Of a stretch of 48,365 nucleotides of DNA, positions 1 to 48,365 are shown one piece after another; the first letter of the stretch is position 1; every line of letters begins with the position of its first letter. A program made the position numbers and the translations under genes. Origin of the DNA: a virus; the IMG/VR virus record IMGVR_UViG_3300013297_000009, positions 1-48,365 of that record, one strand, 5' to 3'. The notes beneath the pieces were generated by a model. That model worked only from the letters and a program-made list of their open reading frames with translations. It ran no database searches and was not told where the DNA came from.

Positions 1-73
1 CGCCGCCAGAGCCGCCAGTTACGCCAGAGCCGCCAGTTACGCCAGTGACGCCAGTTACGCCGCCAGAGCCGCC
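1..73. repeat. Direct terminal repeat (circular contig overlap), left copy
   Basis: These 73 nt are identical to 48293-48365 at the other end of the window. Both copies lie in the same codon phase of an Ala-rich repeat gene, so joining the ends with a 73-nt overlap gives one uninterrupted frame. This fits a circular or circularly permuted molecule of about 48,292 bp. Because the segment is itself a minisatellite, the exact number of repeat units at the junction may be misassembled. Confidence 0.85.
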
Positions 74-44719: not shown

Positions 44720-45736
44720 TTATTTGCTCCTCATGGAAATGCGCTGCCGATGACTCTGATTAATCTCGCGCTGCGCGGGTGGTGTGATTGGTAGTGCGTG
44801 CGGCTGGATCGGCTGTATCTGTGCTGGCTGCTTGAATCCGAGCTTGTCCTCGGCAACCTGAAACAGGTGTATCGAACCTTCCCGTAAATAAACCTCGGTT
44901 GTAGCAAGTCGCTCATGTCCGAGCAGGGCTTGAATGTCGCGCATCGGGGCGTTGTTGCGGTGCATTCGGTCTGCCGTGTTGTGGCGGATACTGTGAGGCA
45001 GGAAGTTCTTTGCTCCTCGCATCTCTGCGGCTGCCGCAATATCCCGGAGAAGAGTGCGGAGCCCAACGTCACCAAGCCGCCTGTTATGGTCAATGGCGAA
45101 CAGGAAGTCGTGTTTGCAGGTTCCGCGCAAATCCCTCCATGCAATGATCGCGGCGTGAGCGGCACTGATTAGCGGTGTCTCACGTGTTTTCTGACCCTTA
45201 CCGTTGCGGACTATTAAGCGGCGCTCACGCCCGTCTTCGCTCATCACAACATCATTCAGCCGCAAGTTCATCAGCTCCGTTCGGCGGATAGCGCAGTACG
45301 TAAATATTGAGAGGACCGCCTTACCCATTGCGGCGCGGCGCGCATCTGCTAAACGGTCACAGGCGACGAGATATGCCTGTACCTCCTCGTCCGTAATATG
45401 CTCACGCTCAGCGGCGTCTAGTTGCGGCTTGTCCAGTTGCATCGCAGGATTCGCTTCAAGGCACTTCTTCTTCTCAACCATCCATTTACCAAAGTTGCGC
45501 AGCGCGTCGATATGCGCGGTCCGTGTTCGAGGCCGATCACCCTTGTTAGTCCGATAGGTAATCCAGGCATAGAGAACTTCATAGTTGAAATCGATTACTG
45601 TAGGGGTCGCGCCGGTCGCCTCCAGCCAGAGAATGAACGCACGAATCCGGCTGCCATACGACTTTATAGTCGTGCGCGGATTGTTATCATTGCGCATCTT
45701 TGTGACGTATTCGTTGACGAGCACTCGAAGCGTCAT
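44720..45736 (-). CDS. int: Tyrosine-recombinase integrase, 338 aa
   Basis: Catalyses integration and excision. SAM-like N-terminal core-binding domain to about residue 105, then a catalytic domain with Arg (about 150, CAIRRTELMNLR), Lys (about 180, NGKGQKTRETP), HSIRH (about 248), GHERLATT (about 272) and the nucleophile in TTEVYLREG (about 282). A Pro-rich C-terminal extension of about 50 residues is unusual. AGGAGG lies upstream of ATG 45736. attP is 220 bp upstream of the start. Confidence 0.95.
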   Translation of the reverse strand: MTLRVLVNEYVTKMRNDNNPRTTIKSYGSRIRAFILWLEATGATPTVIDFNYEVLYAWITYRTNKGDRPRTRTAHIDALRNFGKWMVEKKKCLEANPAMQLDKPQLDAAEREHITDEEVQAYLVACDRLADARRAAMGKAVLSIFTYCAIRRTELMNLRLNDVVMSEDGRERRLIVRNGKGQKTRETPLISAAHAAIIAWRDLRGTCKHDFLFAIDHNRRLGDVGLRTLLRDIAAAAEMRGAKNFLPHSIRHNTADRMHRNNAPMRDIQALLGHERLATTEVYLREGSIHLFQVAEDKLGFKQPAQIQPIQPHALPITPPAQREINQSHRQRISMRSK

Positions 45737-45776
45737 TGATTCCGCCTCCTAGTTTAGGTATATATTTGATAGTGGA

Positions 45777-45805
45777 ATAATAACGGCTATTCTGCCAATG
45801 CGCAA
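45777..45805 (-). promoter_or_regulatory. Possible integrase promoter
   Basis: Minus strand TTGCGC (45805-45800), 17-bp spacer and TATTAT (45782-45777). Moderate match. A GTAGAC/GTCTAC inverted repeat (45807-45840) sits just upstream and may bind integrase or a regulator. Confidence 0.45.
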
Positions 45806-45954
45806 GGTAGACTCAGGCGTTCTTGTAAAATATTGTCTACACTATTCGGCCTTGTGGCAGGGTATAAGTGGTTACTCGGCAGGAGAGCGGTACAGTAGGA
45901 AAGGGGGTACGTGGTAAGGGGTGGGAGTTTTACTTCGGCAGGTTTGGGTCGGCT

Positions 45955-45991
45955 GGTAGAACGAAGCGCTCTACCGCTGAGCCAACCGCCC
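45955..45991 (-). other. attP: attP core with 5' half of a tRNA gene
   Basis: On the minus strand, 45991-45960 reads as a perfect tRNA 5' half: 7-nt acceptor strand (GGGCGGT), D stem GCTC/GAGC with AGCGGTA loop, then CTTCG and TT, the first part of the anticodon arm. It then diverges. Nothing downstream supplies the 3' half. The plus-strand words GGTAGA (45955-45960) and TCTACC (45970-45975) form inverted arms around 9 bp, the shape of a tyrosine-recombinase core site. The likely attB is a host tRNA gene cut at the anticodon arm; its identity cannot be told. Confidence 0.75.
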
Positions 45992-46002
45992 TGAAGTATT
46001 CT

Positions 46003-46031
46003 ACTATAGCACATGGCGGGTGTTTCCTCAA
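46003..46031 (-). promoter_or_regulatory. Promoter facing the tRNA 5' half
   Basis: Minus strand TTGAGG (46031-46026), 17-bp spacer and TATAGT (46008-46003) with an extended -10 (TGC before it). The tRNA half starts 11 nt later. After integration this promoter would drive the rebuilt tRNA. Confidence 0.68.
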
Positions 46032-46140
46032 CGAATACAGAGGTAGATCAAGCGGTGTCTACATGTATATAAAGGTAGAATTTTAAGGTCGTCGGTTAGA
46101 ACTCCAGTACTGCCCAATGATCACGTTCGGTAGAATTTGG

Positions 46141-46470
46141 CTATGCTGCCGCACCAAAAAGCACTTCAAGGGCGTCTACTGCTTTCCGTCTTGTTACTAC
46201 GGGAAGCCGCTCCAAGAGCTTTCTTGCGCGGTCTAGATCATCGCTCGATACCGACGAAGCAGGCGGCGGGAATACGCGATTATGGACCTCAACTGCCTCT
46301 AGCTTCAGTGCTTGAGCAATACCAGGAATAGACCTTGAGCTAGGAAGACTGTCTCCTGCTTCCAGCTTCGCCCACATACCGCGAGTGATGCCGGATTCCT
46401 TAGCTGCTTCTTCTTGGGTTAGGTCCAAAGCTCTGCGTTGTTCCCGCAACCATTCATTGAACGGTTGCAC
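46141..46470 (-). CDS. HTH (Xre/CI-like) repressor, 109 aa
   Basis: GTG 46470 is chosen because AAGGAGGTGA ends four bases upstream; an ATG at 46512 overlaps the promoter -10. HTH of Xre type at about residues 10-40 (REQRRALDLTQEEAAKESGI, then WAKLEAGDSLPSS). The C-terminal helical part (ARKLLERLPVVTRRKAVDAL) probably dimerises. There is no S24 peptidase, so induction would not use RecA-stimulated self-cleavage. Likely maintains lysogeny by binding the palindromes at 46493 and 46873. Confidence 0.85.
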   Translation of the reverse strand: MQPFNEWLREQRRALDLTQEEAAKESGITRGMWAKLEAGDSLPSSRSIPGIAQALKLEAVEVHNRVFPPPASSVSSDDLDRARKLLERLPVVTRRKAVDALEVLFGAAA

Positions 46471-46492
46471 TGACTCACCTCCTTTCTCAAAC

Positions 46493-46511
46493 TGTATAAC
46501 CGCATTATACA
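46493..46511. promoter_or_regulatory. Operator palindrome 1
   Basis: TGTATAA-N5-TTATACA, a perfect 7-5-7 palindrome that overlaps the repressor -10 (46504-46509). An imperfect version (TGTATAA with a degenerate right arm) lies at 46542-46560, over the -35 of the divergent promoter. Confidence 0.75.
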
Positions 46512-46532
46512 ATAAAGGTATGTGAAATGCAA
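46504..46532 (-). promoter_or_regulatory. Repressor promoter
   Basis: Minus strand TTGCAT (46532-46527), 17-bp spacer and TATAAT (46509-46504). Overlaps operator 1, so the repressor may regulate itself. Confidence 0.68.
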
Positions 46533-46620: not shown

Positions 46621-46848
46621 ATGACCGGTTCCGATTACAAGCATGAAATGATCCGAGCCCTCCGCAAGCTCAGCGGTATGACGCAAGCAGAGCTGGCTGA
46701 GAAGGCAGGCGTATCACGCATGATGATAAGCCTGGCCGAAAAAGGCTCATACCTCCACTTCGACCGCCTCAAGTTAATAGCTGAAGCATTCGGCATCCAG
46801 CCAAAAGATTTACTCCGCGATACAGTTCCCGAAAAAACATTTGCCTGA
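46621..46848 (+). CDS. Cro-like HTH protein, 75 aa
   Basis: ATG 46621 after GGGGGAG. Compact HTH_3 protein: IRALRKLSGMTQAELAEKAG, then SRMMISLAEKGSYL and AEAFGIQPKDLL. Divergent from the repressor, so it is probably Cro-like. It might bind the same palindromes to commit the phage to lysis. Confidence 0.82.
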   Translation: MTGSDYKHEMIRALRKLSGMTQAELAEKAGVSRMMISLAEKGSYLHFDRLKLIAEAFGIQPKDLLRDTVPEKTFA

Positions 46849-47696: not shown

Positions 47697-48365
47697 ATGA
47701 CGGTAGTGATTGCACGAGACTTAAGCAAGCCAGTACGGAAGCTGACGAAGACGGTAGCGCGGCGCGTGTTGCGGGTCGTTGACGCGGGGCTCTGTAAGGG
47801 CGTCGGTGAAGCGGTTCCCGGTCAAATGGGCGCGGAGGCTGCCATATGCTACGCCTACAATCTCCCGCATGGTGACGAACCGTCATGTGTTGAGCCTTGC
47901 ATTCGGTCATTCAAGATTAATCTGAATGACGCAGCATGGTCCAGCAATGAGGCACGAGCCAAGGGGATGAGACGGGCTGCTCTTGCCCAACTCGGATCAA
48001 AAGGTGTCGTTGACCCTGTTAAATGGTCACGCATCGTTGCCCTGCAAACCATCAAGATTATCGTTCCAGAGGCGTTGCGGATAGCAGCAAAACTCCACTC
48101 TCAAGAGATGCATAAACTAGCGTTGGAAGCGGCTGCCGTTAAGTGCGAACAGTCCGAAGGACTTGACGCCGCCAGTGACGCCAGTTACGCCGCCAGAGCC
48201 GCCGCCAGAGCCGCCAGTTACGCCAGTTACGCCAGTTACGCCAGTTACGCCGCCAGAGCCGCCAGTGACGCCGCCAGTTACGCCGCCAGAGCCGCCGCCA
48301 GAGCCGCCAGTTACGCCAGAGCCGCCAGTTACGCCAGTGACGCCAGTTACGCCGCCAGAGCCGCC
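47697..48365 (+). CDS. Ala-rich repeat protein, N-terminal and repeat part (continues at position 74)
   Basis: ATG 47697 after AGGGAG; an ATG at 47679 in the same frame has a weaker site. About 157 normal residues (with GLCKGVGEAVPGQMGAEAAI, then DAAWSSNEARAKGMRRAALA and LHSQEMHKLALEAAAVKCEQ) precede a repeat of three-residue units A-[A/S]-[Y/D/R]. The frame runs off the window and resumes at position 74 with a stop at 217, giving about 270 residues. The repeat DNA is a 9-nt minisatellite (GCC-AGT-TAC and variants). Possible helical or adhesive region; function unknown. Confidence 0.8.
   Translation, partial: MTVVIARDLSKPVRKLTKTVARRVLRVVDAGLCKGVGEAVPGQMGAEAAICYAYNLPHGDEPSCVEPCIRSFKINLNDAAWSSNEARAKGMRRAALAQLGSKGVVDPVKWSRIVALQTIKIIVPEALRIAAKLHSQEMHKLALEAAAVKCEQSEGLDAASDASYAARAAARAASYASYASYASYAARAASDAASYAARAAARAASYARAASYASDASYAARAA
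48168..48365 (+). repeat. Coding minisatellite (9-nt units), right part
   Basis: Tandem units GCC-AGT-TAC, GCC-AGT-GAC, GCC-GCC-AGA, GCC-AGA-GCC; every unit is a multiple of three bases, so slippage changes length but not frame. It continues from position 1 to about 115. Confidence 0.9.
48293..48365. repeat. Direct terminal repeat (circular contig overlap), right copy
   Basis: Exact duplicate of positions 1-73. It ends the window inside the Ala-rich repeat gene that continues at position 74. I see no packaging (cos) signal here; the repeat is coding minisatellite sequence. Confidence 0.85.

Follow-up and report, generated by a model that had tools for sequence, protein, structure and literature searches.

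Why should a tailed phage carry, upstream of its integrase gene, the front half of a transfer RNA (tRNA) gene preceded by a promoter-like site? This question is raised by the DNA stretch analyzed here (hereafter, the window), which, with its 48,365 bases, is the entire IMG/VR virus record IMGVR_UViG_3300013297_000009. We consider it probable (roughly 0.78) that positions 45955-46031 of the window are the core of the phage attachment site (attP) by which a temperate phage integrates into a tRNA-Val gene of its host, and that the crossover swaps the promoter of this tRNA. The features on which this reading turns are the following:

45960..45991, minus strand: 5' half of a tRNA-Val gene, positions 1-33 (blastn, Rfam, pairing to Val 3' parts)
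46003..46008, minus strand: putative -10 hexamer TATAGT with an extended TG before it, 11 nt ahead of the tRNA half (consensus match)
46026..46031, minus strand: putative -35 hexamer TTGAGG (consensus match)
44720..45736, minus strand: XerC-like tyrosine integrase (int), 338 aa, with an N-terminal SAM-like core-binding domain (domain search)

The tRNA half consists of 32 nt located 224 nt upstream of int and is an end piece that starts from the first base of the tRNA (positions 1-33), not an internal piece. The blastn matches were drawn from a plasmid/chromid collection, and the best full-length ones are Val tRNAs, with 93.8% identity across all 32 nt to Paracoccus tRNA-Val(CAC). The top Rfam match is the tRNA model, positions 1-35, cut at the 3' end (17.5 bits, E = 0.11), a weak score because only half of the model is present. 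The half contributes one strand each to the acceptor and anticodon stems; set against the 3' portions of 68 tRNAs taken from retrieved loci, these strands formed 12 of the 12 possible Watson-Crick pairs with Val-TAC and 11 with each of three Val-CAC tRNAs, against 8 for the next best tRNA; the phage half joined to the Val-TAC 3' part is read as tRNA-Val by ARAGORN. Judging by identity and pairing, the half is derived from tRNA-Val, and the identity stops at tRNA position 33 (34 should the host target be Val-CAC).

These results bear out the tRNA 5' half (45991-45960) that was recognized in the first-pass annotation of this DNA. The same annotation placed an integrase next to the half, which is confirmed by the PF00589 domain (E = 2.2e-25, 89.8 bits against a cut-off of 27.1) and by the alignment of the catalytic R-K-HxxR-H-Y residues (invariant R150, K179/K182, H247, R250, H273 and Y282); it also described a TTGAGG-N17-TATAGT promoter with an extended -10, 11 nt before the half, the minus-strand coordinates of which are correct. 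The spacer between the two hexamers is indeed 17 nt on the minus strand, and 1.5% of random windows drawn from the same genome have a promoter score at least as high as the 65 nt that precede the half, on score alone modest evidence for a promoter-like site. A 14-nt inverted repeat (93%) links 45707-45720, in the first int codons, with 46025-46038, over the putative -35.

The ends of the record determine how this site is to be interpreted:

48293..48365, no strand: terminal overlap, an exact 73-nt copy of window positions 1-73 (sequence identity)

Given these identical ends, the phage genome is circular or circularly permuted, and phage DNA flanks the tRNA-half site on both sides. No tRNA gene was detected in the window by ARAGORN, hence no 3' half completes the phage 5' half. 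A circular-type genome that lacks any other tRNA implies that the site would be attP and not the end of a prophage. The window encodes the structural proteins of a tailed phage, namely terminase, portal and major head protein. The 73-nt overlap sits in a GCCAGTTACGCC/GCCGCCAGAGCC-type repeat that seemingly codes for an Ala/Ser-rich protein (start at ~47697), and the record, although circular-type, is possibly classed as linear.

Around the tRNA half, a short motif is conspicuously repeated:

45955..45975, minus strand: putative recombination core, inverted pair GGTAGA-GCGCTTCGT-TCTACC, with a predicted crossover position
45806..45811, minus strand: TCTACC repeat (6-mer enrichment)
46042..46047, minus strand: TCTACC repeat (6-mer enrichment)
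46074..46079, minus strand: TCTACC repeat (6-mer enrichment)
46129..46134, minus strand: TCTACC repeat, candidate binding site for the integrase or an accessory protein (6-mer enrichment)

No other 6-mer in the interval between int and the putative repressor gene is as enriched as GGTAGA/TCTACC, which occurs 6 times against 0.18 expected (p = 4e-8; 348 6-mers). The core pair straddles the point where the tRNA homology stops: GGTAGA belongs to the tRNA D-arm and TCTACC is phage sequence (p = 0.008 for the inverted pair against a shuffled phage side). With one mismatch allowed, the pair becomes GGTAGAG-CGCTTCG-TTCTACC, that is, 7-nt half-sites flanking a putative 7-bp overlap, CGCTTCG. A copy of the TTCTACC motif with one mismatch (45999-46005) overlaps the putative -10, and a protein that binds the TCTACC repeats might also control the tRNA-half promoter.

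A like layout was found in three further IMG/VR phages, L016 (record G001), L114 (G002) and L097 (G003), with integrases 25-27% identical to that of the window (27% for L016). The first was identified by a profile search of IMG/VR with the integrase followed by a D-arm scan, and the other two by two pattern scans. In all three loci, a promoter-like site is followed by a tRNA 5' half standing on its own, then by the D-arm repeated in inverted orientation and finally by int, which is read in the same direction; no second D-arm or full tRNA is present in the whole records. L016, found by the D-arm alone, contains a perfect 10-nt dyad (p = 0.00015); the scans for L097 and L114 demanded a partial inverted arm, so the arms of these two are not independent evidence of a dyad. 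The integrases of L016 and L114 are 71% identical, yet strong DNA conservation ahead of int is confined in this pair to the tRNA half with the inverted arm (40/41 nt). Promoter-like sites with a 17-nt spacer, assigned by consensus only, precede all four phage halves (p = 0.015, 0.005, 0.015 and 0.006). The ends of G002 overlap by 127 nt, so this record is circular as well; in G003 the half is flanked by head genes on one side and an endolysin gene on the other. The L097 half is tRNA-Gly-like, if this candidate isotype is correct; the same phage encodes a GroEL chaperonin (L130, 17777-19366; phrog_5725, E = 7e-112).

The layout is uncommon, considering that a scored scan for D-arms in the neighborhoods of 80 integrase relatives yielded one clear isolated half, L016, and was otherwise near the shuffled level (41 vs 33 hits). 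The remaining pattern-scan matches were mainly full or odd tRNAs, or chance matches, lacking an adjoining integrase, and a wider scan with the L016 and L114 integrases revealed no close relatives beyond that pair. For the window integrase and terminase, IMG/VR contains no close relatives, and phage DNA records include no near match to the window. In a quick integrase tree with long branches, the label for this layout needs three changes, at least two of them forced, suggesting that the layout likely arose several times among integrases. The nearest tree neighbor of the L016 and L114 integrases, L053 (3001-3912 and 4811-4903), has a full tRNA-Leu gene ~900 nt from int.

The four sites also bear on where the strands would be exchanged. 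In canonical tRNA positions, to which they were converted by hand, the dyad centers are at 28 in the window, 27.5 in L016 and L114, and 27 in L097; the tRNA identity ends at ~30 in L097, 32 in L016 and L114, and 33-34 in the window. Because the identity ends at 30-34 and the dyads center at 27-28, an overlap at ~24-31 fits these sites and an overlap in the anticodon loop does not, so that the crossover is predicted to lie at the junction of the D-arm and the anticodon arm, not at a standard tRNA subsite. The first-pass annotation had the tRNA half run through the start of the anticodon loop; this is where the identity stops, but the crossover more likely lies upstream, between the D-arm and the anticodon arm. 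An ordinary anticodon-centered integration, with the crossover in the loop and the 5' half as a mirror-image homology arm, appears unlikely. Anticodon-centered sites are the largest group in Islander, 2083 of 3919 (PMC4383910), and the tRNA identity does extend to the first bases of the loop. However, a 7-bp overlap centered on the loop requires identity to position 38, and the window departs from the Val loops after 33-34, L016 and L114 diverge after 32, and L097 by ~30 (if it is tRNA-Gly); in none of the four phages does the attP identity cross the whole anticodon loop, and the dyads center at 28, 27.5 and 27. Most tyrosine integrases, not all, need homology in the overlap.

Two further explanations dispense with a rebuilt tRNA. 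Under tRNA-dependent lysogeny, which is known in mycobacteriophages (PMC10865867), only a short core would be shared, the host tRNA would be destroyed, and its function would come from a complete phage tRNA or from redundant host genes. We consider this very unlikely given that ARAGORN finds no complete phage tRNA and that the full 5' half is kept from position 1, together with its own promoter-like site; moreover, the L016/L114 conservation starts at the first bases of the tRNA, which a bare core would not need. Phages often carry tRNAs, and the half might be what remains of a decayed phage tRNA gene, or else a decoy transcribed from the promoter-like site, with no role in attachment. Such an origin is very improbable because the fragment is cut at nearly one point, just upstream of int, in four phages, the other three records contain no further tRNA, and the half is accompanied by the inverted core and the repeat cluster.

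The proposal of the first-pass annotation, an attP that carries the tRNA 5' half with a promoter and a crossover that places the tRNA under the phage promoter, is supported by the circular genome, the repeats and inverted core, the pairing with Val 3' parts and the three additional phages. This anatomy gives the tRNA promoter swap good support, and its consequences for expression would follow from the geometry. The integrase would bind the inverted core, with the D-arm GGTAGAG on the left and the phage TTCTACC on the right, and exchange strands between them, at about tRNA positions 25-31. Integration into attB, the bacterial attachment site expected in the host tRNA-Val gene, would place the host 3' half behind the 5' half and promoter contributed by the phage, and it is from this promoter that the rebuilt tRNA-Val would then be transcribed; the 5' half and promoter of the host gene would become the int leader. 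In the free phage, the tRNA-half promoter would read through the half into int; no terminator-like site and no further minus-strand promoter-like site is found between this promoter and int. Integration would take int away from the phage promoter. It would also part int from the upstream helix-turn-helix (HTH) gene, which would then read toward the rebuilt tRNA. The HTH genes concerned are:

46141..46512, minus strand: HTH_3 protein, in the same direction as int with attP in between, CI-repressor-like by position (putative role)
46621..46848, plus strand: HTH_3 protein, divergent, Cro-like by position (putative role)

The succession of int, the tRNA-half site and two divergent HTH genes is the arrangement of a typical immunity region. 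Between the half and int, a weak promoter-like site on the plus strand (45766-45793; 9/12) faces away from int and runs antisense through attP; an equivalent antisense site, strong in these cases (TTGAC[AT]-16-TATACT), is present on the minus strand of L016 (2802-2775) and L114 (3793-3766). The window int leader is not unusually structured (z = -1.6), a value that lends no support to an ICEKp1-like attenuator ahead of int.

Several observations weigh against the tRNA-Val integration model. The first-pass annotation suggested looking for a host tRNA and a lysogen; this search was run with the exact 32-nt half and a relaxed pattern against the genome contigs of 84,980 species and produced 0 matches, and no host, attB, attL or attR (left or right prophage junction) sequence was found in the genome-contig searches. 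The exact half or core does not occur in other IMG/VR contigs. The window dyad has only six exact pairs, and the predicted promoter matches 9 of 12 consensus positions in a case that was picked because of its promoter. The integrase begins straight at the SAM-like domain, and the repeats may therefore bind another protein instead.

If the integration model is correct, the prophage would take over the expression of a host tRNA, and int and the tRNA would trade promoters with each other in one crossover. More generally, and at slightly less than even odds, several integrase lineages might use an additional tRNA subsite, the D-arm/anticodon-arm junction (~24-31, with the nearly universal D-arm GGTAGAG on the left). 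They would bring their own tRNA promoter because everything 5' of the junction must be replaced, leaving the tRNA of the lysogen under phage transcription and int under the host tRNA promoter. Because the D-arm half-site is common to many tRNAs, such a core would suggest a route for an integrase to shift between tRNA targets. Among bacterial elements, those that exchange both the front half and the promoter of a tRNA form a small, little-studied minority, and such phages would escape any search restricted to 3' tRNA fragments.

The nearest known counterparts share parts of this scheme. In Islander, 159 of 3919 islands (about 4%) carry a 5' tDNA fragment; in these, as in the window, the integrating element displaces the 5' part of the tRNA and thus supplies a new one, but the subsites recognized there are only the anticodon loop, the T loop and the T/acceptor junction, and the paper leaves the promoter question aside, the word "promoter" being absent from its text (PMC4383910). 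The pTN3-like archaeal integrases (IntpTN3 of Thermococcus nautili) also employ the 5' half of a tRNA gene as attP/attB, and the rebuilt tRNA, cut off from its original promoter, is expressed from the integrase promoter (PMC8371274, PMC5495485), a usage seldom met in bacteria according to a review (PMC8371274; PMC5495485). In this archaeal system, attP lies inside int, which is split upon integration (suicide type), whereas the window belongs to a tailed phage with bacterial-type promoter signals, a whole int, an intergenic attP with its core ~220 nt upstream of the int start codon, and a predicted overlap at 24-31 instead of the anticodon loop. Elements with dusA-specific integrases likewise exchange the 5' end of their target gene and bring a putative promoter, but this target is a protein gene (PMC4482086).

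For int, the closest parallels are ICEKp1, ICEEc1 and ICEclc, in which the host tRNA promoter has been shown to drive int in the integrated state, and the excised int is read from an element promoter brought across attP; unlike the window phage, these elements use the tRNA 3' end, the tRNA retains its own promoter, and an attenuating 5' untranslated region has been demonstrated (PMC13023037). The part of the first-pass annotation that had the host promoter read into int thus holds as an expectation, but the coupling is not peculiar to phages with a 5' half, and it can arise wherever int lies behind a tRNA in the same direction. Such an arrangement is also seen in KplE1 IntS (STI-type), where int is autoregulated at its own promoter (PMC2951348). 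The tRNA promoter swap and tRNA-promoter-driven int each have precedents; what is new is a group of phages that combine both, keep int whole and seemingly recombine at the D-arm/anticodon-arm junction.
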